From positions 1,736,001 through 1,800,000 of the forward strand of contig NZ_JACHNE010000001.1 of NCBI RefSeq assembly GCF_014205255.1: DNA of 64,000 nucleotides, given 5' to 3'. A program made the position numbers and the translations under genes. The notes beneath the pieces were generated by a model. That model made no database searches, had not been told where the DNA came from, and was given only the letters and a program-made list of their open reading frames with translations. The DNA is from Streptomyces caelestis (lineage in GTDB: Bacteria > Actinomycetota > Actinomycetes > Streptomycetales > Streptomycetaceae). Positions 51,667-64,000 of this stretch are shown here, piece by piece; positions within the stretch are counted from its first letter, which is position 1, and each line of letters starts with the position of its first letter.

Positions 51667-52611
51667 CTACGCCTCCCCCGGCTCCGAGGCCACCGTCACG
51701 ACGATCTTGCCGCGCGTCCGGCCCTCCTCGTTCAACCGGTGGGCGTCCGCCGCGCGCTCCAGTGGGAACGTCTCGGAGACGTGGACGCTCACCACGCCCT
51801 GTTCCGCCAGGTCGGACATCCGCTGGAGGTCCTCGGCGTCGGGGCGGACGAAGTAGTAGCGGCCGCCGTAGGTCACGACGCCGACGTCGGTGATCGACAC
51901 CAGGCGGCCCTCGGGGGCCAGCAGGTTGGCCGAGACCTTCAGCGCGTCCCCGCCGACCGTGTCGAACACCGCGTCCACACCCTCGGGCACCAGCCCGCGC
52001 ACCCGCTCGCCCAGACCCTCGCCGTACGCCACCGGCTCCCCGCCGAGGCCGCGCACGAAGTCGTGGTTGGACTCGCTCGCCGTGCCGATCACCCGGGCGC
52101 CGAGGTGGGCGGCGAGCTGTACGGCGATCGAGCCGACGCCGCCGGCCGCGGCGTGCACCAGCACGGTCTCGCCCCGCTTCACCTGGAGCACCTTGACCAG
52201 CACCTGGTAGGCGGTGAGCCCGACCAGCGGCAGTCCGGCCGCCTCCTCGAAGGAGAGGTTGCGCGGCTTGCGCGCGAGGGTGCGCAGGGGCGCGGCCACG
52301 TACTCGGCGAAGGTCCCGCGGGAGAGGAAGTCCTCGCGTACGTACCCGATGACCTCGTCGCCGACGTCGAACTCCGACACGGCCACACCGGGCCGTACGA
52401 CGACGCCCGAGACGTCCCAGCCGGGCACCACGGGGAAAGCGGCTTCGAAGAGCCCTTCGAGATGGCCCTCGCGGGCCTTCCAGTCGACGGGGTTCACGGA
52501 CGCCGCCCGCACCTTCACCAGCACCGAGTCCGGGCCGACCTTGGGATCGCGGACCTCCCCGAACGCCAGCACCTCGGGTCCGCCGTACCGTGAGTAGCTG
52601 ATCGCCTTCAT
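51667..52611 (-). CDS. NADP-dependent quinone oxidoreductase (zinc-free MDR)
   Basis: A 314-residue medium-chain reductase without zinc ligands. N-terminal GroES-like domain (MKAISYSRYGGPEVLAFGEV, VNPVDWKAREG, GWDVSGVV), cofactor motif VLVHAAAGGVGSIAVQLAAH and the VFDTVGGD strand. ATG 52611 has GGAAGG 8-9 nt upstream. It is divergent from the APH-type kinase gene (198 bp). Confidence 0.9.
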   Translation of the reverse strand: MKAISYSRYGGPEVLAFGEVRDPKVGPDSVLVKVRAASVNPVDWKAREGHLEGLFEAAFPVVPGWDVSGVVVRPGVAVSEFDVGDEVIGYVREDFLSRGTFAEYVAAPLRTLARKPRNLSFEEAAGLPLVGLTAYQVLVKVLQVKRGETVLVHAAAGGVGSIAVQLAAHLGARVIGTASESNHDFVRGLGGEPVAYGEGLGERVRGLVPEGVDAVFDTVGGDALKVSANLLAPEGRLVSITDVGVVTYGGRYYFVRPDAEDLQRMSDLAEQGVVSVHVSETFPLERAADAHRLNEEGRTRGKIVVTVASEPGEA

Positions 52612-52752
52612 GGCTTCGACCTTCCGCGCTCGCCGCGCGGCACGCAAGCCGGATGGCCTGAACGAACCGGCCGAGAGCTCCCTGGCGCCCCGCGGCGGGA
52701 GTCGTCGGCCTATCGTGGCTCCGATCACGTTTCGGCCCCACTCTGGACGACA

Positions 52753-52768
52753 TACCGACCGGTCGGCA
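52753..52768. promoter_or_regulatory. TetR-type operator before the kinase/acyl-CoA dehydrogenase operon
   Basis: TACCGACCGGTCGGCA, core palindrome CCGACCGGTCGG, 41 bp upstream of the kinase start. It fits the pseudopalindrome TACCGACCGNTNGGTN described for the fatty-acid-related TetR protein PfmR at all but one defined position. A second site occurs at 58519-58534. Confidence 0.75.
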
Positions 52769-52809
52769 TCATGAGTGGGAACTGTTCACCCCCCCCGTAG
52801 GAGCGACGC

Positions 52810-53832
52810 ATGAGCCCCGACCACCCGCCCGGACTCGACCTCGACCGGCTGCGCGGCCTGCTCGACCGCGAGCGGCCCGGCCTGGTGAGCGGTGCCCTGT
52901 CCGGCCGGCTGATCGAGGGCGGACGGTCGAACCTCACCTACGCCGTCTCCGACGGCACCTCCCGGTGGGTCGTACGCCGGCCCCCGCTCGGCCATGTCCT
53001 GGCCACCGCGCACGACATGAAACGCGAGCACCGGGTCATCAGCGCCCTGCACCCGACCGCCGTCCCGGTTCCGCGGCCGGTGCTGCTGTGCGAGGACGAG
53101 GAGGTGCTCGGCGCGCCGTTCTACGTCATGGAGTTCGTCGAGGGCATCCCGTACCGCACGGCCGACCAGCTCGCCCCGCTCGGTCCGGAGCGGACCCGGG
53201 GCGCGGTGCTGAACCTGGTGGACGCGCTGGTGGAGCTGCACGCCGTGGACCCGGGCGAGGTGGGGCTCGCCGACTTCGGCCGGCCCGAGGGCTTCCTGGA
53301 CCGGCAGCTGCGGCGCTGGGGCAAGCAGCTGGACGCCTCGCGCAACCGCGAGCTGGCCGGGATCGACGAGCTGCACGCGACCCTCGGACGGCGGCTGCCC
53401 TCCTCCCCCGCCCCGGCCGTGGTGCACGGCGACTACCGGCTGGACAACGTCCTGATCGGCGAGGACGACCGCATCAAGGCGATCCTCGACTGGGAGATGT
53501 CCACCCTGGGCGACCCGCTCACCGACCTGGGCCTGCTGGCGATGTACAGCATGCCGCTCGACGCGGCGGACTCCCCCGTCTCCACGACGGCCGAGGCGCC
53601 GGGACACCCGGACCCGGCCGAACTGATCGAGCGGTACGCCGCTCGCTCGGGGCGCGACGTCTCCGCGGTCTCCTGGTACACGGCGTTCGCCTGGTTCAAG
53701 CTCGCCGTGATCCTGGAGGGCATCCACTACCGCTACACCCTGGGCCAGACGGTCGGGCGCGGCTTCGACCGCATCGGAGACCTGGTCCCCGTCTTCATCG
53801 AGCACGGTCTCACCACTCTTCAGGAAGGCTGA
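52810..53832 (+). CDS. APH-type phosphotransferase (ACAD10/11- and LvaA-like kinase)
   Basis: A 340-residue aminoglycoside-phosphotransferase-fold kinase. ATP-binding Lys region VVRRPPLGHVLATAHDMKRE, hinge YVMEFVEG, catalytic loop VVHGDYRLDNVLIG (D208) and metal motif ILDWEMSTLGDPLTDLG (D227). This subfamily is the one fused to acyl-CoA dehydrogenase in mammalian ACAD10/11 and acting as LvaA in Pseudomonas, where it phosphorylates the 4-hydroxyl of 4-hydroxyacyl-CoA. Here the dehydrogenase is the next gene, 5 bp downstream. ATG 52810 has AGGAG 6-7 nt upstream. A TetR-type operator lies in the promoter. Confidence 0.87.
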   Translation: MSPDHPPGLDLDRLRGLLDRERPGLVSGALSGRLIEGGRSNLTYAVSDGTSRWVVRRPPLGHVLATAHDMKREHRVISALHPTAVPVPRPVLLCEDEEVLGAPFYVMEFVEGIPYRTADQLAPLGPERTRGAVLNLVDALVELHAVDPGEVGLADFGRPEGFLDRQLRRWGKQLDASRNRELAGIDELHATLGRRLPSSPAPAVVHGDYRLDNVLIGEDDRIKAILDWEMSTLGDPLTDLGLLAMYSMPLDAADSPVSTTAEAPGHPDPAELIERYAARSGRDVSAVSWYTAFAWFKLAVILEGIHYRYTLGQTVGRGFDRIGDLVPVFIEHGLTTLQEG

Positions 53833-53837
53833 CGGAC

Positions 53838-55052
53838 ATGGACTTCGCGTTCGACGCGCGCACGGAGGAGCTGCGCGGCAAGCTGCTGGCCTTCATGGAC
53901 GAGTACGTCTATCCGGCCGAGGCCGTCGCGCATGAGCAGCGGGCGCTGCTCGCCTCGCCCTGGGAGACCCCGGTGGTGGTCGAGGAGCTGAAGACCGAGG
54001 CACGCAGGCAGGGCCTGTGGAACCTGTTCCTGCCGGACTCCGAGTACGGCGCGGGGCTCACCAACCTCCAGTACGCGCCGCTCGCCGAGATCATGGGGCG
54101 CTCCCCGCAGCTCGCCCCGACGGTGACGAACTGCGCGGCGCCCGACACGGGCAACATGGAGGTCCTCACCCAGTTCGGCGACGAGCAGCAGCGCAAGCAG
54201 TGGCTGGAGCCGCTGCTGGCCGGTGAGATCCGCTCGGCGTTCGCGATGACCGAGCCCGACGTGGCCTCCTCGGACGCCACGAACATCACGACGCACATCG
54301 AGCGGGACGGTGACGAGTACGTCGTCACCGGCCGCAAGTGGTACATCTCCGGGGCGTTGCACCCGGACTGCAAGATCTTCATCGTGATGGGCAAGACGGA
54401 CCCGGAGGGCTCCGACATCCGCCGTCAGCAGTCGATGATCCTGGTCCCGCGTGACACGCCGGGTGTGACGATCAAGCGCGCGATGCAGGTTTTCGGCTAC
54501 GAGGACCACTACCACGGCGGCCATGCCGAGGTGATCTTCGACCACGCGCGCGTGCCGGCGTCGAACCTCATCGGTGAGGAGGGCGGCGGCTTCGCCATCG
54601 CGCAGGCGCGGCTGGGGCCCGGCCGGATCCACCACTGCATGCGGCTGATCGGGATGGCGGAGCGGGCGATCGAGCTGATGTGCCGGCGGGCCGTGTCCCG
54701 TACGGCCTTCGGGAAGGCGCTGGCCCAGCAGGGTGTGGTGCACAACTGGATCGCGGATGCGCGGGTGACGGTCGAGCAGTTGCGGCTGCTGGTACTGAAG
54801 ACGGCGTGGCTGATGGACACGGTCGGGAACAGGGGGGCGCACACCGAGATCCAGTCGATCAAGATCGCTACGCCTCGCGCGGTGGTGGACATCCTCGACC
54901 GGGCGATCCAGTTGCACGGTGCGGGGGGTGTGAGCCAGGACTTCCCGCTGGCGGAGCTGTACGCGGGGGCGCGGACGCTGATGATCGCCGACGGGCCGGA
55001 CGAGGTGCATCAGCGGTCGCTGGCGCGGCGGGAGCTGAAGCGGTACGTGTGA
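53838..55052 (+). CDS. Acyl-CoA dehydrogenase (ACAD11/LvaC-like)
   Basis: A 404-residue flavoenzyme of the acyl-CoA dehydrogenase fold: FAMTEPDVASSDATNI (FAD contact), GRKWYISGALHPDCKIFIVM, LGPGRIHHCMRLIGMAERAI, and the C-terminal QLHGAGGVSQDFPLAELYAG with DEVHQRSLARREL. Members of this branch, working after an APH-type kinase, eliminate phosphate from 4-phosphoacyl-CoA in the ACAD11 and Lva pathways. ATG 53838 follows AAGG about 10 nt away. It completes a two-gene operon and converges toward the TetR gene across a repeat-filled gap. Confidence 0.9.
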   Translation: MDFAFDARTEELRGKLLAFMDEYVYPAEAVAHEQRALLASPWETPVVVEELKTEARRQGLWNLFLPDSEYGAGLTNLQYAPLAEIMGRSPQLAPTVTNCAAPDTGNMEVLTQFGDEQQRKQWLEPLLAGEIRSAFAMTEPDVASSDATNITTHIERDGDEYVVTGRKWYISGALHPDCKIFIVMGKTDPEGSDIRRQQSMILVPRDTPGVTIKRAMQVFGYEDHYHGGHAEVIFDHARVPASNLIGEEGGGFAIAQARLGPGRIHHCMRLIGMAERAIELMCRRAVSRTAFGKALAQQGVVHNWIADARVTVEQLRLLVLKTAWLMDTVGNRGAHTEIQSIKIATPRAVVDILDRAIQLHGAGGVSQDFPLAELYAGARTLMIADGPDEVHQRSLARRELKRYV

Positions 55053-55427
55053 CGCGCGCGGGGCGGCGGGACGGTTTTTCGCCCCCGCTGCCCCTACCCT
55101 CCCCCAAGCTCTCGGCTTCGCTCGAGCAGGGGGGACCCCATCATCCCCAGGGGCTCCGCCCCTTCGACCCCGCCAGGGGGCTCCGCCCCCTGGACCCCCA
55201 TCGGTCTGAACGGCCTCGTCCTCAAACGCCGGACGGGCTGCGGAAGTGACTCAGCCCAGCGTTTCAAACCCGGCCACCCGGCAGCCTGGCCGCCTGGCCA
55301 ACCGATGCGCCGGACGGGCTGGGTGTGGCTCCGCTTGGCGTTTCGAGTCCGGCCTCCTGGCCGGCCGGTTCGGGTGGTGGGTGGGCATAGGCCGGGGGTC
55401 CAGGGGGGCGGAGCCCCCTGGACGCGG
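55053..55427. repeat. Mosaic of Streptomyces intergenic repeats and hairpins
   Basis: No gene seen. Contents: a hairpin around GCTCTCGGCTTCGCTCGAGC flanked by CCCCC and GGGGG (about 55101-55135); GGGGCTCCGCCCC hairpins at 55149-55164, 55174-55193 and, inverted, 55400-55421; and an approximately 80-bp imperfect duplication in which CGCCGGACGGGCTG recurs at 55227 and 55308 and CGTTTC at 55260 and 55339. Such modules recur between convergent Streptomyces genes and likely act as terminators. Confidence 0.75.
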
Positions 55428-56030
55428 TTACGGGCGCAGTGCGCGCAGCAGCAGGTCCGCCAGGTGGTCGGCCACCTGCTGGGGGCTCATCGGGCCCTCG
55501 GGGCGGTACCAGGTCGACAGGTGGTGGACCGAGCCGAAGTGGTAGTCGACCACCAGGTCCGCCGGGGTCGCCTTGGAGAAGACGCCCGACTCCTGGCCCT
55601 CCTCCACCAGCGCGCGGAAGCGCTCGTGGTAGCGGCGGCGCTCGGCGCGGACCTGCTTGTTCTTCTCGGGGCTCAGGTGGTGCATGGACCGCCAGAAGAT
55701 CATCGCGTCGTCGAGGTTGTCGATGGTCGTCACCACGACGTCCGCGGCCGCGGCCCGCAGCCGCTTCTCCACCGGCTCGTCGGCGTCCGCGACGGCGTCG
55801 AGTCTCTCCTGCTGAATGCGCAGCACACGCGCGTACACCTCGTGCAGGAGGTCGTCCTTGGAGCCGAAGTAGTGGTAGAGCGCGCCTTTGGTGACACCGG
55901 CCGCCTCGACGATCTCCTGCACCGAGGTGCGGTCGTAGCCCTGCTCGGCGAAGAGCCGGGTGGCGGCGGCCAGGAGCCGCTGAGGTACGGGGGTGCCGTC
56001 CGAGTCCGTCGTCCTGGGCACTGCCGCCAC
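55428..56030 (-). CDS. TetR-family regulator
   Basis: A 200-residue TetR protein. Helix-turn-helix at about 15-60 (AATRLFAEQGYDRTSVQEIV, EAAGVTKGALYHYFGSKDDL), then a helical ligand domain with conserved-looking HHLSPEKNKQVRAERRRYHE and DLVVDYHFGSVHHLSTWYRP. GTG 56030 follows GGAAAGG closely; GTG 56021 is an alternative. It is the last gene of the SDR-synthetase-TetR operon, so it is autoregulated if it binds the site upstream of the SDR. An acyl-CoA is the likely inducer. Confidence 0.9.
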   Translation of the reverse strand: MAAVPRTTDSDGTPVPQRLLAAATRLFAEQGYDRTSVQEIVEAAGVTKGALYHYFGSKDDLLHEVYARVLRIQQERLDAVADADEPVEKRLRAAAADVVVTTIDNLDDAMIFWRSMHHLSPEKNKQVRAERRRYHERFRALVEEGQESGVFSKATPADLVVDYHFGSVHHLSTWYRPEGPMSPQQVADHLADLLLRALRP

Positions 56031-56049
56031 CTGCCTTTCCGTACTGCTG

Positions 56050-57714
56050 TCAGTTGCCTTGCGTCCGGGAACGAAGCTCCCGACGGAGGATCTTCCCACT
56101 GGCCGTCTTCGGCAAGTCCGGCAGGATCTCCACCTGGCGGGGATATTTGTAGGCGGCCAGTCTCTCCTTGCAGTACACGGCGAGTGCATCCGGGTCCGTG
56201 TCGGCGTCCGGACGCAGGCTGATGTACGCCTTGACGGTCTCCCCTCGGTACCCGTCGGGCACCCCGACGACAGCGGCCTCACGCACCGCCGGGTGCGTGT
56301 AGAGCACGTCCTCGACCTCGCGCGGCCACACCTTGAAGCCGGACGCGTTGATCATGTCCTTCTTGCGGTCGACGACGTACAGCCAGCCGTGCTCGTCCAT
56401 GAAGCCGATGTCGCCGGTGCGCAGTTCGGCGCCGGGGAACGTCTCGGCGGTGGCGTCGGGGCGCCGCCAGTAGCCGGGCACGACCTGCGGGCCGCGGACG
56501 ACGATCTCGCCCTGCTCGCCGAAGGGGACCTCTTCGCCGTTGTCGTCGACGATCCGTACGACCGTGTCGGGGCCGGGCAGGCCGACCGCGAGGGTCCCGG
56601 AGACCGGGTCGACGGGCGCCTGAAGGCCGGGCGGCACGGAGGCGCAGGGCGCGGTGCACTCGGTCAGGCCGTAGCCGTTGCGGATGTACGGCCCGAAGCC
56701 CGCCCGGAACTTCTCCACCAGCGCGGGCGGCAGCGGGGCGCCGCCGGAGGAGATCACTCGGAAGGAGGAGAAGTGGTCGCGGGTGACGGACGGGTGGGCG
56801 GCCAGCGCCATGAAGGCCGTGGACGGGCCGACGGTGTAGTGCGGGCGGTGCTCGGCGAACGCGTCGAGCACCACGCCCGCCTCGAAGCGGTAGGCCAGCA
56901 CGAGCGTGCCCGCGCTGTTCAGGCAGGCGCCGAACTGGCAGACCATGCCGGTGATGTGGAACAGCGGCGCCAGCGCGAAGTAGACGGGCCGCTCGGGCAG
57001 CCCCAGGCCGGTCCGCTGCCGCTCGGCGTTGTACATGATGTTGCCGTGCGTGTTGGTGGCGCCTTTGGGTGTGCCGCTGGTGCCCGAGGTGTAGCTGATC
57101 AGCGCGATGTCGGAAGGGGCGGGGTCCCGGTCCCCGGGCGCCTTGTGCCCGGCCCGCGCCACGGCCACCAGGTCGTCGGCGTCCGTGGCCCGCGGCAGCC
57201 GCTCGAAGGTCAGCACGCGCGCGCCACCCCACGTCTGGAAGTCCAGTTCGCATCCGGTGAGCACGATCCGCACGGGCGAGTCCGCCGCCGTCGCGCGCAG
57301 ATACGACTCCCACGCCCGGTCCGAGCAGATCAGCGCGGCGACCTCGCCGTCCCGCAGGACGTGGGCCACCTCGCCCGCCTTGTACATCGGGTTGACGGGC
57401 ACGACGACCGCGCCCGCCTTCCAGGCGCCCAGCACGGCGAGCACGAAGTGCGGGGAGTTCTGCAGCAGTACCGCGACCCGGTCTCCGCGATTCAGTCCGC
57501 GCGCCGCGAGATGCCCGGCGACGGAGTCGCTGAGCTCGTCGACGTCCCGATAGGCCAGGCGGCCGTCGAAGTAGGCCAGGAAGTCACTGTCGGGCGTCTC
57601 GGCCACGGCCCGGCGCAGGGCGTGCACGAGGGAGCCGGCGGGGCTTATCGCGCCCTTCTGGGCGTCGCTCAGCAGATCCAGCCAGGGTTGGGCAGCGTAA
57701 CGTGAGTCGGTCAC
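56050..57714 (-). CDS. Acyl-CoA synthetase (AMP-binding)
   Basis: A 554-residue ANL-superfamily ligase that activates a carboxylic acid to its CoA thioester through an acyl-AMP. Motifs: YTSGTSGTPKGATNTHGNIM (phosphate loop), FHITGM, GYGLTECTAPCA, GDIGFMDEHGWLYVVDRKKD (hinge) and the catalytic Lys in LPKTASGKILRREL. GTG 57714 overlaps the SDR stop (GTGA), so an in-frame start at 57762 is less likely. The acid is unknown; context suggests a 4-hydroxy or 4-keto acid or other unusual fatty acid. Confidence 0.9.
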   Translation of the reverse strand: MTDSRYAAQPWLDLLSDAQKGAISPAGSLVHALRRAVAETPDSDFLAYFDGRLAYRDVDELSDSVAGHLAARGLNRGDRVAVLLQNSPHFVLAVLGAWKAGAVVVPVNPMYKAGEVAHVLRDGEVAALICSDRAWESYLRATAADSPVRIVLTGCELDFQTWGGARVLTFERLPRATDADDLVAVARAGHKAPGDRDPAPSDIALISYTSGTSGTPKGATNTHGNIMYNAERQRTGLGLPERPVYFALAPLFHITGMVCQFGACLNSAGTLVLAYRFEAGVVLDAFAEHRPHYTVGPSTAFMALAAHPSVTRDHFSSFRVISSGGAPLPPALVEKFRAGFGPYIRNGYGLTECTAPCASVPPGLQAPVDPVSGTLAVGLPGPDTVVRIVDDNGEEVPFGEQGEIVVRGPQVVPGYWRRPDATAETFPGAELRTGDIGFMDEHGWLYVVDRKKDMINASGFKVWPREVEDVLYTHPAVREAAVVGVPDGYRGETVKAYISLRPDADTDPDALAVYCKERLAAYKYPRQVEILPDLPKTASGKILRRELRSRTQGN

Positions 57715-58484
57715 CGGTTCTGCTCCCACTGCTGCTGGATGCGGTTCATACCGGTCAGCCACCGGTCGGAATCACCGGCCCGCGCCTGGTGGTAGGCGGC
57801 GACCTCGGGATGCGGCAGGATCAGGAACCGGTCCTCCTCGATGCCCTTCACCAGGGCGTCCGCCACGGCCTCCGGCTCGATCGCGGTCGGCTGGAGCACC
57901 AGGTCGCCCGCGCTGCCCGTGGCGGCCAGCATGTCGGTGCGTACGCCCTGCGGGCAGATGGCGTGGACCTTCACGCCCCGGTGCCGGTACGTCAGCGACA
58001 GCCATTCGGCGAAGGCGAGGGCGCCGTGCTTGGTGACGGCGTAGGGCGCGGCGCCGATCATGGTGAGCAGCCCGGCGGCGGAGACGGTGGAGACGAACCG
58101 GCCGCTGCCCCGCTCCAGCCAGGCGGGCAGCAGCTCATGAGCGGCCCGGACGTGCGCCATGACGTTCACGTCCCAGGAGGTCGCCCAGGCCTTCTCGTCC
58201 AAGGGCGCGTCCGCATGGCCGCCCTCGAAGGCGACACCGGCGTTGGCGCAGTACACGTCGACGGTCCCGTCGAGCGCTTCCCGGGCCTCGCCGACGATCG
58301 CCGAGGCATCACCGGGCACGGCGATCCCCCCGACCTCCGCCGCGACGTGCTTGGCCCGTTCGGCGTCCAGGTCATTGACGACGACCCGGGCTCCCTCGGC
58401 GGCGAAGCGCCGGGCGAGTGCGGCTCCGATCCCGCCGCCTGCCCCCGTGACAACCACTCCGGACCCCTGAAAGGCTCCCACCAT
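57711..58484 (-). CDS. SDR oxidoreductase
   Basis: A 257-residue classical short-chain dehydrogenase. Cofactor motif TGAGGGIGAALARRFAAEGA with NDLD (NAD preference suggested by the Asp), CANAGV, catalytic STVSAAG and YAVTK. ATG 58484 has AAGGAG 4-5 nt upstream. First gene of the SDR-synthetase-TetR operon. By analogy with LvaD it could reduce a 4-ketoacyl-CoA to 4-hydroxyacyl-CoA, or act as a beta-oxidation dehydrogenase. Confidence 0.87.
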   Translation of the reverse strand: MVGAFQGSGVVVTGAGGGIGAALARRFAAEGARVVVNDLDAERAKHVAAEVGGIAVPGDASAIVGEAREALDGTVDVYCANAGVAFEGGHADAPLDEKAWATSWDVNVMAHVRAAHELLPAWLERGSGRFVSTVSAAGLLTMIGAAPYAVTKHGALAFAEWLSLTYRHRGVKVHAICPQGVRTDMLAATGSAGDLVLQPTAIEPEAVADALVKGIEEDRFLILPHPEVAAYHQARAGDSDRWLTGMNRIQQQWEQNR

Positions 58485-58518
58485 CGGTCTCCTTAGACGC
58501 GGCTCTGCGATGGCGCCA

Positions 58519-58534
58519 GACTAACCGGTCGGTA
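58519..58534. promoter_or_regulatory. Second TetR-type operator, before the SDR/synthetase/TetR operon
   Basis: On the minus strand TACCGACCGGTTAGTC, sharing TACCGACCGGT with the site at 52753 and matching the PfmR-type consensus except at one position. It lies 35 bp upstream of the SDR start, inside the expected promoter. Confidence 0.75.
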
Positions 58535-58555
58535 TGTTTCAAGGAAGGGGATGGC

Positions 58556-61339: not shown

Positions 61340-64000
61340 TCACCGGTGCGAGGTGAACTCCACGACCTGCTGGTAGGTCGGCCGGTTCTGCCAGCTGATC
61401 TTGCCGTGCTTGATGCCGCCGAGGGTGCGGTGGTTGATCGAGTCGGCGCACCACTGGTCGCCCGCCGAGCACACGTCGTCGCCCGGGTAGACCTGGGCCG
61501 CGGTCTTGCCGGCCGCCTCCTTCAGGGTGCTGACGAGGGTGTCACGGCAGGCGCCGAGGTCTCCGTCGCCGCAGTACTCGCGGGCCAGCGGCCCGCGCAC
61601 CTGCTCGCCGAGCACGGACCGGATGTCCTTGTCGACGTAGCTCCACCAGCCGTACTGGAAGGAGCTTCCGGCGTGCGACCCGGTCGGGCCGTGGGCGGCG
61701 GAGGGGGACTCGTCGACGGGGAGGTTGGCGGTCATCGCCGTGAACAGCTCGCTGCCGAGGCCCGGTTCGAACTCGGCCTTGACCAGCAGCGGCCACCAGG
61801 CGTCCAGGATGCGGATCGCGTCGGCGTCGGCGTACTTCTTGGAACCGGCCGAGGTCTCCGTGCGCTTGCCGCCCGCGGCGACCCACGCCTGGAGCTTGCC
61901 GACGGCGGCCGCGGCGGTGGGGTCGGTGACCGGCGAACTGTTGACCACCTTCAGCAGCTTGGGCAGGACGTCCTCCGCCCGCAGATCGGCGACCCCGGCA
62001 TCCGCCATCGCCTTCACCAGCGAGGCCCGGGTGACGCCGCCCTGCTGGACCAGCTTCTTCACCCGGTTCTCCAGGAGGTTGCCGCGGTGCACGGAGCCGT
62101 TGCCCCAGGGCGCGGTCGTGTAGTCCTTGGCCTGCTTGTTGTTCCAGGAGATGTAATAGTCCTGGTCGATGGAGTTGGGGTGGGCGGAGGGCGGGGTGTA
62201 GTCGGCCGTGTTGGTCGCCGGGTCCCAGCCCCGCCACTCGTACGCCGCCCGGGCCCACACCGGGAACTCGGCGTCGACGCCGTTCGCGCGCACGGGGTTG
62301 TCGCCGCTGTTGTAGTAGGCGGTGTGCTCGGAGTCGGCGTAGAACCAGTTGAAGGTGTAGTTGATGTGCTGCACCGCCTTCTGGAACGATTCCGGGCCCT
62401 TCACGTAGTCCGGGTCGTTCAGCATCTGGAAGCCGATGATGGAGTCGGCCTCGTGCAGGAAGGACGAGCGCAGGGTGGTGTAGGCGACCTTCTTGCCGCC
62501 GACCGTCGCGCGGTACTCGACGGGTCCGTACTTCGTGCGCCAGACGCGCATCGTGTACGAGCCGGCCGCGGTGCCGTCGGCGACCGTCGGCTTCCAGGCG
62601 TTCTTCCGCTCGACCTTCTCCATCGGCGTGCAGGTGCCGCGGTACAGGTAGTGGTAGTCGTCCTGGCACAGCTCGACGGCGTACGTGTCGATGATGTCCT
62701 GGCCGGAGGTCGTGGCGCTCCACGAGTAGTCCTGGCCGCGGCCGAGTTCGACGTACATGCTCAGACCCGCGAAGGAGGCGCCGCGGGCGCTGATGCCCGG
62801 CCCCTGGAGCTCCTGGAGCAGCAGCAACTGCGGCGCGAAGTAGCCGGTCTGCGGGCCGAACACGGCGACCGGGTGGCCGCTGGCGGTGTGCTCGCCGCTG
62901 ACCACGAGGGCGTTGGACATGCCGCGCTTGGCGGACGACAGGGCCTTCTTGGCGGCCTCGCTGGAGGCGCTGGTGGCGCTTGAGCCGGCCGCGCTGCCCG
63001 TACGGTCGTGGACCAGCGGTTCCTGGGTCACCGAGCCGGCGTCGGGCAGGGTCCGGCCCTGCGGGGCGTCCGGCCTGGTCGCGTACGGGAAGCTGCCGTC
63101 GTGCTGGGTGAGGACGGCCTCCGGGTCGTTGCGCTCGCGGAAGGACTCCCACACCTTGGTGCCCTCGGCCACGCCGTACTTCTCCTGGGCGGCCAGGAGC
63201 GAGAGGGCGTTGTTGACCTCGCCGCCTCCGCCGGAGCCGAACAGCGCGCCGATGACGGAGGCCAGCGCCACCATGTCGGTGATCTTGAAGTGCTCGATCT
63301 TCCCGGCGTTGGTGACCGAGTCCTTGTGCCCGGTGAGGACGTACTCGCCGGGGAAGTACCGGCCGCTGTCGGAGGCGTCGATGTAGGCGTTGATGCCGTC
63401 GAGGTACGCCTTGACGTCGGCGAGGGCCAGCTTCCCGCGCTCGCCGTTGGTGGCGACGGCGTTGTCGATCTGCGCCTGGAGCTCGGCCTCGGAGTACGGG
63501 GCGTGCCGCCAGAACTGCTGTTCCAGGCCCTGGTTGGAGGGCGCGCCGCCCGCGAAGGAGGTCAGCTGGCCGCGTCCGACGTGCCGGAAGACGTCCATCA
63601 GCCACAGCCGGTCCTGCGCGGCCGCGTAGCCGGCGCCGAACTCCGTGCCGTACCTGGTGGTACCGGTGATGTGCGGCACACCGGTCTTCTTGTCCCGGAC
63701 GATCGTCACGTCACCGCGCCCGGCGGGTTTGACGGTGGAGGCGACCTGGTCCGCCGGGACCCCGAAGGAGGCGTCGTTGAAGAAGTTGTTGATCTTGTCG
63801 TTGGTGAGGCCGGTGTACCCCTTGGCGAGGTTGGCGTACGGCCCGAGCTGGTCCTGGGCGTGCTCGGGCTGGGTGCCGAAGGCCTGGTTCGCGAGGATCT
63901 GGGCGAGGGTGGCGTTGCCGTTCTGGCCGGGCGGGAGGATGTCCGAACACTGGTTGCCGCAGTAGTCGTTCGCCGCCGCCGCGGCCTGCGCGGTCTCCGC
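61340..64000 (-). CDS. Penicillin acylase family protein (N-terminus beyond the window)
   Basis: At least 886 residues of an Ntn-hydrolase of the penicillin/acyl-homoserine-lactone acylase family; the start lies past 64000. The A-chain part includes VTIVRDKKTGVPHITGTTRY, AAAQDRLWLMDVFRHVGRGQ. The autocatalytic junction is GMSNALVVSGEHTASGHP; its Ser codon (62915-62917) should become the B-chain N-terminal nucleophile after self-cleavage. Downstream marks are GPQTGYFAPQLLLL, YADSEHTAYYNSGDNPVRA and ISWNNKQAKDY. Such enzymes are exported and cleave amides of acylated metabolites (penicillins, AHLs, lipopeptides). It converges on the alpha/beta-hydrolase gene with 20 bp between stops. Confidence 0.9.
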   Translation of the reverse strand, partial: AETAQAAAAANDYCGNQCSDILPPGQNGNATLAQILANQAFGTQPEHAQDQLGPYANLAKGYTGLTNDKINNFFNDASFGVPADQVASTVKPAGRGDVTIVRDKKTGVPHITGTTRYGTEFGAGYAAAQDRLWLMDVFRHVGRGQLTSFAGGAPSNQGLEQQFWRHAPYSEAELQAQIDNAVATNGERGKLALADVKAYLDGINAYIDASDSGRYFPGEYVLTGHKDSVTNAGKIEHFKITDMVALASVIGALFGSGGGGEVNNALSLLAAQEKYGVAEGTKVWESFRERNDPEAVLTQHDGSFPYATRPDAPQGRTLPDAGSVTQEPLVHDRTGSAAGSSATSASSEAAKKALSSAKRGMSNALVVSGEHTASGHPVAVFGPQTGYFAPQLLLLQELQGPGISARGASFAGLSMYVELGRGQDYSWSATTSGQDIIDTYAVELCQDDYHYLYRGTCTPMEKVERKNAWKPTVADGTAAGSYTMRVWRTKYGPVEYRATVGGKKVAYTTLRSSFLHEADSIIGFQMLNDPDYVKGPESFQKAVQHINYTFNWFYADSEHTAYYNSGDNPVRANGVDAEFPVWARAAYEWRGWDPATNTADYTPPSAHPNSIDQDYYISWNNKQAKDYTTAPWGNGSVHRGNLLENRVKKLVQQGGVTRASLVKAMADAGVADLRAEDVLPKLLKVVNSSPVTDPTAAAAVGKLQAWVAAGGKRTETSAGSKKYADADAIRILDAWWPLLVKAEFEPGLGSELFTAMTANLPVDESPSAAHGPTGSHAGSSFQYGWWSYVDKDIRSVLGEQVRGPLAREYCGDGDLGACRDTLVSTLKEAAGKTAAQVYPGDDVCSAGDQWCADSINHRTLGGIKHGKISWQNRPTYQQVVEFTSHR

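Follow-up and report, generated by a model that had tools for sequence, protein, structure and literature searches.

A probable 4-hydroxyacyl-CoA salvage module of the ACAD10/11 type in Streptomyces, carried by two converging operons with shared operators

The enzymes that break down 4-hydroxy acids by way of a phosphorylated intermediate were identified only between 2017 and 2025, in Pseudomonas and mammals (consulted parts of PMC12440821, PMC11342911 and PMC6692424). The Pseudomonas enzymes are coded by the lva operon (lvaABCDEFG), while the mammalian proteins ACAD10 and ACAD11 carry the kinase and the acyl-coenzyme A (CoA) dehydrogenase fused in one chain. A kinase and a dehydrogenase of Burkholderia can each substitute for the matching domain of ACAD10 (parts of PMC11342911). 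The locus described here lies in a window of 64,000 bp, the whole stretch of DNA analysed, which corresponds to positions 1736001–1800000 of the single-contig 8.94 Mb genome of Streptomyces caelestis. Between window positions 52753 and 58534 it probably carries a 4-hydroxyacyl-CoA salvage module found genus-wide in Streptomyces, which would follow the ACAD10/11 route and is arranged in two converging operons under one PfmR-like repressor of the TetR family. The gene order, the ACAD11-type active site and the two shared, conserved operators can be read directly from the DNA. From them we infer every enzymatic step, the substrate, the binding of TetR and its ligand. The module is composed of the following features, given in window coordinates.

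52751–52769, plus strand: operator 1, CATACCGACCGGTCGGCAT, 5' of the kinase gene; a near-palindrome with 0 mismatches to the 19-base pattern CATACCGACYGGTYRGYMT
52810–53832, plus strand: APH-fold kinase, a predicted 4-hydroxyacyl-CoA kinase with ACAD11-type motifs (Pfam APH, 1.2e-57)
53838–55052, plus strand: ACAD11-type acyl-CoA dehydrogenase, predicted to eliminate phosphate from 4-phosphoacyl-CoA (ATG start; acyl-CoA dehydrogenase domains)
55428 to about 56021, minus strand: PfmR-like TetR regulator (PF17932, 111.8 bits; GTG start at about 56021, GTG 56030 being an alternative)
56050–57714, minus strand: AMP-forming acyl-CoA ligase (PF00501, 8.9e-90, and PF13193)
57711–58484, minus strand: short-chain dehydrogenase/reductase (SDR), first gene of the TetR operon (PF00106, 1.2e-36)
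58518–58536, minus strand: operator 2, CATACCGACCGGTTAGTCT, 5' of the SDR gene; 0 mismatches to the same pattern

The dehydrogenase ATG is found 5 bases past the kinase stop codon, and the ligase GTG start overlaps the SDR stop by a few bases (the Pfam and NCBIfam scans of the ligase used a longer start at 57762). The minus-strand operon, in the order SDR, ligase, TetR, converges on the kinase-dehydrogenase pair. The place and orientation of the five genes agree with a preliminary description of this DNA, which had delimited the locus at 52753–58534; both of these ends fall within 2 bases of the two near-identical operator sites.

The dehydrogenase belongs to the ACAD11 type. A search of solved structures retrieves four ACAD11-type chains (three of ACAD11 and 4hr3) at 5e-134 to 7e-138, ACAD11 8v3u being the best match (6.8e-138), and the next chain follows at 4.1e-39. 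The identity to mouse ACAD11 is 56.1%. In the mouse enzyme R626, H634 and R637 bind the 4-phosphate and their loss is the most disruptive, R631 helps to place the substrate and D753 acts as catalytic base (parts of PMC12440821). Their counterparts in the window protein are all present: R258 (R626), R263 (R631), H266 (H634), R269 (R637) and D385 (D753), after a shift by one since the index of the PDB chain runs one below the numbering of that paper. The corresponding motif R....R..H.MR is found in this protein alone among the 22 dehydrogenase matches of the genome (E ≤ 1e-12) and is missing from the other 21. The predicted phospho-elimination chemistry is well supported by these residues. In a maximum-likelihood tree of 33 rows the window dehydrogenase lies within a 23-row group that includes mouse and human ACAD11 (support 100/100); the LvaC proteins fall outside it and three conventional dehydrogenases farther away. 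The rows of this tree and of the kinase trees are genes picked automatically from 35 loci; those of L047, L068, L075, L077 and L078 are missing from the dehydrogenase tree. The ACAD11-like nature of the dehydrogenase, as first proposed, is thus upheld by identity, residues and grouping. Note that the dehydrogenase domains of ACAD10 and ACAD11 are reported to share 62% and 56% identity with LvaC (parts of PMC11342911), figures at odds with the 32–33% found here between mouse ACAD11 and lva-type LvaC proteins (L214, L216, L219). A stand-alone Pseudomonas dehydrogenase (L203) is 58% identical to mouse ACAD11; proteins of this stand-alone kind, about 60% identical to the window enzyme, were considered as LvaC and rejected on their gene neighbours.

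The kinase finds its nearest solved chains in 9o56, in 3dxp, which was deposited as a putative acyl-CoA dehydrogenase, and in the kinase domain of ACAD11, with 33–40% identity to these three. It shares 21–23% with the LvaA rows and 20–27% with unrelated kinases of the same genome, so LvaA is no closer than these. The motifs SN.T(Y/F), HGD...DN, WE.ST.G.P and RQ..W are common to the window and ACAD11 kinases and absent from Pseudomonas LvaA; the exact window forms HGDYRLDN and WEMSTLGDP and the R of RQ..W match ACAD11 kinases. The catalytic D220 and N225 of ACAD11 and its CoA-side R176 are present, as VHGDYRLDN and RQ..W align with the ACAD11 chain. R86 of the ACAD11 paper could not be matched by its number, and an R-E pair is found at the described place of the window kinase. 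The motifs of the kinase and the residues of its neighbour bear out the proposal of a kinase paired with an ACAD11-type dehydrogenase. Likeness to the mammalian proteins extends over the dehydrogenase identity, the phospho-elimination residues and the kinase motifs, whereas the window differs in having two separate proteins, a kinase of a separate group, its own repressor and operators, and a co-regulated SDR and ligase.

The pattern CATACCGACYGGTYRGYMT has two exact matches in the 8.9 Mb genome, at the window positions listed above, and no further site with fewer than 2 mismatches is found anywhere in it. With up to 3 mismatches allowed and each strand counted separately, the genome has 38 matches to the pattern and 21 to the pattern reversed. 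Both window sites and those of relatives went into the pattern, so that exact matches there arise by construction; the absence of other close sites and the conservation of these two do not. A looser first motif pattern gave 577 sites per strand and was abandoned as uninformative. In all 20 other Streptomyces loci compared (13 kb each) one site is found within 200 bp 5' of the kinase gene with 0 or 1 mismatch and another 5' of the SDR gene with 0 mismatches, and, palindrome partners aside, no third site within 2 mismatches is found in these loci. The kinase-side operator keeps GGTCGG or AGTCGG and the SDR-side operator GGTTAG. Hexamers resembling -35 and -10 elements are conserved around both operators, as judged by eye only. 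These sites are good evidence for the putative control of both operons by TetR, and the candidate two-operon regulon under one operator type is well supported, in line with the common control that the preliminary description had suggested. Outside Streptomyces the operator tends to accompany the TetR orthologue. Four non-Streptomyces loci carry a TetR of at least 59% identity: three (L068, L070, L078) have an operon-start site with at most 2 mismatches and the fourth (L069) one site with 3 mismatches. Among the other 16, only L077, with a TetR of 41% nearby, has an operon-start site with at most 2 mismatches.

Genome sites with 2 mismatches were not added to the regulon, such as those at 1243038, before a conventional dehydrogenase, and 1809164, before a transporter-like open reading frame (ORF). 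In a neighbouring region (L117 2562–9268, genome 1802562–1809268), 8–15 kb from the SDR gene, lie a MaoC-like gene, a TetR gene and a dehydrogenase gene (32–33%), followed further along by a transporter-like ORF that is preceded by an operator with 2 mismatches; similar MaoC-like or TetR genes are also found near the SDR gene in L064–L066. The Zn-type oxidoreductase at 51667–52611 was weighed as a further, divergently read member of the regulon, the third, and then left out: it is found in 13 of the 20 Streptomyces loci (once as a 59-aa fragment), and in relatives it usually lies farther from the kinase than in the window. A large minus-strand ORF at 61340–63709 appears by eye to code for a hydrolase of the penicillin-acylase type.

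The regulator, whose C-terminal domain is PF17932, has its best solved relative in 3vpr (residues 12–195, 96.8 bits), which we take for the Thermus thermophilus PfmR. The window TetR resembles the TetR that heads the PfmR operon on plasmid pTT27 (33.7% over 178 aa; identified as TTHB023 by gene order). The sequence ACCGACCGGTCGGT lies directly 5' of that gene. Both marks of the PfmR type, length-wide TetR similarity and PfmR-like operators 5' of the target genes, are thus found here. The predicted site of TTHB023 is TACCGACCGNTNGGTN, and TTHB023–TTHB014 code, in order, for TetR, an acyl-CoA dehydrogenase, a hypothetical protein, a 3-oxoacyl-ACP (acyl carrier protein) reductase, a MaoC-related protein, a second hypothetical protein, a medium-chain acyl-CoA ligase-related protein, a gluconate 5-dehydrogenase, an acyl-CoA dehydrogenase and a phosphotransferase (consulted parts of PMC7022988). 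The pTT27 record shows the same ten genes in this order, followed by genes for a DUF6285 protein and a histidine phosphatase, so that the region (L221 5044–13746, strain HB8) carries a PfmR operon with a complete lva-type set. Its kinase, the neighbouring dehydrogenase, the SDR and the ligase piece share 39, 50, 41 and 43% identity with Lva proteins (37–50% when DUF6285 is included), and the dehydrogenase beside the kinase carries HCMR. The Thermus operon thus resembles the window in its TetR, its operator and the presence of a phosphotransferase, a dehydrogenase, an SDR and a ligase, but its enzymes are lva-type, its dehydrogenase is 40% identical to that of the window, and its genes form a single long run that includes MaoC, thioesterase and histidine phosphatase genes. 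Because of the likeness of TetR and operator on one side and of the matches to Lva on the other, one regulator-operator type appears to head two different enzyme sets, lva-type in Thermus and ACAD11-type in Streptomyces. PaaR of Burkholderia cenocepacia is likewise a TetR repressor acting on an inverted repeat ACCGACCGGTCGGT placed between -35 and -10, but it governs phenylacetate genes, and the likeness is one of operators (parts of PMC2770484). This operator type may mark CoA-ester catabolism in general. A bolder reading sees PfmR-type TetRs with ACCGACCGGTCGGT as dedicated sensors of 4-oxygenated acyl-CoAs over two enzyme sets, and the Streptomyces module as kept genus-wide for 4-hydroxy acids derived from the organism's own gamma-lactones or butenolides; we consider it a long shot.

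A kinase match (E ≤ 1e-60) is found in 86 of 90 genomes of the genus and in 125 of 150 relatives in all, counts that include a few matches that are partial or of about 51% identity. The gene neighbourhoods were compared in 20 Streptomyces and 20 other actinobacterial loci, hand-picked from these kinase matches and therefore not a random sample. In all 20 Streptomyces loci the kinase and dehydrogenase genes lie side by side, with TetR and SDR genes facing them, several loci having extra kilobases of DNA between the two arms. A dehydrogenase of at least 61% identity directly follows the kinase in all 20 of them and in 9 of the 20 other loci, one of which ends at a contig end. The breadth within the genus would favour an internal or ubiquitous substrate over levulinate. 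The SDR is the steadier partner, found in 20 of the 20 Streptomyces loci against 17 for the ligase. Outside the genus, L068 has the order SDR-SDR-kinase-dehydrogenase in one direction, with an SDR directly before the kinase, and two more of the 20 loci (L072, L075) have an SDR of 57–61%. The nearest solved chain of the SDR is a (3R)-hydroxyacyl-CoA dehydrogenase, 2et6 (1.2e-30). All 24 rows of an alignment keep NAG, Y..K and the nucleotide-site D; in this family a conserved D after the second strand suggests use of NAD(H). The ligase scores below the cut-off of every NCBIfam model among the 25 of 107 matches listed and could be replaceable by other ligases.

Two plasmids carry related genes. 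In Streptomyces cathayae (NZ_CP121683.1, L123 7972–11709) a kinase and dehydrogenase copy, 89.7% and 90.3% identical to the window proteins, has an SDR gene next to it; no ligase is annotated between, the TetR match covers 53% of the query, and IS3-family genes are found on both sides. In Streptomyces sp. NBC_00388 (NZ_CP107949.1, L126 1–15203) a pair with 53% (kinase) and 70% (dehydrogenase) identity, the latter with HCMR, lies among AfsA-like, ketosynthase, CoA-transferase, MaoC and tautomerase genes, which would suit a use of ACAD11-type chemistry within a butyrolactone-like biosynthetic cluster.

The pair probably strips the hydroxyl group from 4-hydroxy fatty acids for their breakdown. 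In the proposed route the ligase would make the CoA ester, the kinase would phosphorylate the 4-hydroxyl and the dehydrogenase would eliminate the phosphate, its FAD being redox-active without net oxidation, to give a 2-enoyl-CoA that could enter beta-oxidation. The SDR would also act on this chain: it could reduce a 4-keto precursor, or else oxidise the 3-hydroxyacyl-CoA formed later on. TetR would occupy the operators in both promoters and be released as a CoA ester of the pathway accumulates. Levulinate, lactones and lipid-peroxidation products are guesses as to the substrate, and nothing specific speaks for levulinate.

The lva operons used as a yardstick were located through DUF6285 (PF19802), found in 8 of 149 Pseudomonas genomes, from which 7 loci were fetched. 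Four of these (L214–L217) show a divergent large ORF, then genes for a kinase, a 118-aa protein, a dehydrogenase, an SDR and a ligase. To judge by gene order and protein size they are probably lva operons, with the DUF6285 protein as the probable LvaB. The 118-aa protein between the presumed LvaA and LvaC sits at the DUF6285 match, which would give the family of LvaB. Five L216 proteins served as the Lva reference. A genuine levulinate operon of the Lva type in the window, with the ligase as LvaE, the SDR as LvaD, the kinase as LvaA and the dehydrogenase as LvaC, is unlikely by this comparison. The enzyme classes and the predicted chemistry are alike, HCMR and the catalytic D are also found in LvaC, and the lva region of Pseudomonas citronellolis also lacks lvaB (parts of PMC6692424). 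Yet identity is at most 36% throughout: 35.6% to LvaC, 33.3% to LvaE, a family-level value, a partial 31.6% over 212 aa to LvaA, and 24.6% over 179 aa (E 0.002) to LvaD. LvaA reads GGAIQENW and HRDYRTGN where the window kinase reads GGRSNLTY and HGDYRLDN. The regulator is a TetR instead of LvaR, and no transporter gene was recognised among the listed neighbours. LvaB of L216 has no match of weight to any window pathway protein, and DUF6285 has 0 matches in the window genome, the same search having picked it up in 2 of 14 controls; the absence of LvaB noted at the outset would extend to the whole genome. From the low Lva identities and the missing DUF6285 it follows that the window set is not an lva operon, and the levulinate route with the SDR as LvaD, put forward in the preliminary description, is not sustained.

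Degradation or tailoring of gamma-butyrolactone or butenolide hormones, which are 4-hydroxy acids once hydrolysed, would explain the near-universality of the module in Streptomyces. The gene company of the L126 pair fits this possibility, as does the TetR helix-turn-helix, which also matches gamma-butyrolactone receptors; the operator half-site presumably resembles the ArpA consensus. Those receptors match the helix-turn-helix end only, however (residues 13–83, 37–42 bits, against the almost full-length 3vpr match), the ScbR model of NCBIfam gives 71.4 bits for a cut-off of 150, the PfmR and PaaR precedents account for the operator, and no lactonase was recognised in the cluster by the Pfam scan, all of which makes hormone turnover improbable. 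The operator was also considered as a gamma-butyrolactone receptor box and set aside, as the CprB test sequence differs and the PaaR and TTHB023 sites provide a precedent. Least credible is an ordinary beta-oxidation dehydrogenase standing beside an unrelated small-molecule or antibiotic kinase. Pfam and NCBIfam do give generic family names only, but the best antibiotic-kinase model in the NCBIfam scan of the kinase reaches 35.8 bits for a cut-off of 205, the ACAD11-type residues are complete here and their motif is absent from the other dehydrogenase matches of the genome, the pair is kept in every Streptomyces locus compared, and ACAD10 and ACAD11 were found inactive on plain acyl-CoAs (parts of PMC12440821).

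Several observations weigh against the salvage module as proposed. The kinase forms a separate actinobacterial group in the trees, which leave the branch order of this group, the ACAD11 kinases, the 9o56 type and LvaA unsettled; in the approximately unbiased test ACAD11 kinases (p 0.448) and LvaA kinases (p 0.194) are both retained as its sister. Because of this separate group and undecided sister placement the kinase is ACAD11-like by motif and not shown to be so by descent. Of the genome's 33 APH matches 6 served as outgroups, three of these 6 being dropped from the tested tree for their long branches, and rows of L047, L067, L068, L074, L078 and L084 are missing from the kinase trees. Clustering of the kinase away from LvaA and ACAD10/11, named in advance as counter-evidence, is thus half borne out: the group is separate, while neither sister placement is rejected. 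In the dehydrogenase tree some of the rows outside the group raise warnings of long branches. Of 149 Pseudomonas genomes, 145 hold an ACAD11-type dehydrogenase, in most cases with an identity near 60%, and no kinase lies beside it in 5 readable loci (L186, L187, L203–L205), although one does in two others (L189, L199); because of the kinase-less loci this dehydrogenase may also serve where no kinase is its partner. By its alignment above the SDR is no orthologue of LvaD, and the ligase, of a generic type, was not found in L061, L064 and L065. Since the core of the operator is shared with PaaR, which acts on phenylacetate genes (parts of PMC2770484), the operator alone is no pointer to 4-hydroxy acids, and a promoter scan gave no sigma-70-like site.

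The chemistry proposed for this module is already known in kind, while its gene set and DNA switch look like a new form of it. A narrow search, confined to open-access literature, found no work linking ACAD11-type enzymes to Streptomyces or actinobacteria: neither "Streptomyces" nor "actinobacter-" occurs in the consulted main text of PMC12440821, nor "Streptomyces" in that of PMC6692424, nor "actinobacter-" in that of PMC11342911. Through the Streptomyces module the Thermus PfmR operon is linked with this predicted chemistry. The module is compact, has a repressor of its own and two operators whose positions are mapped, and would lend itself readily to a genetic search for the natural substrate.

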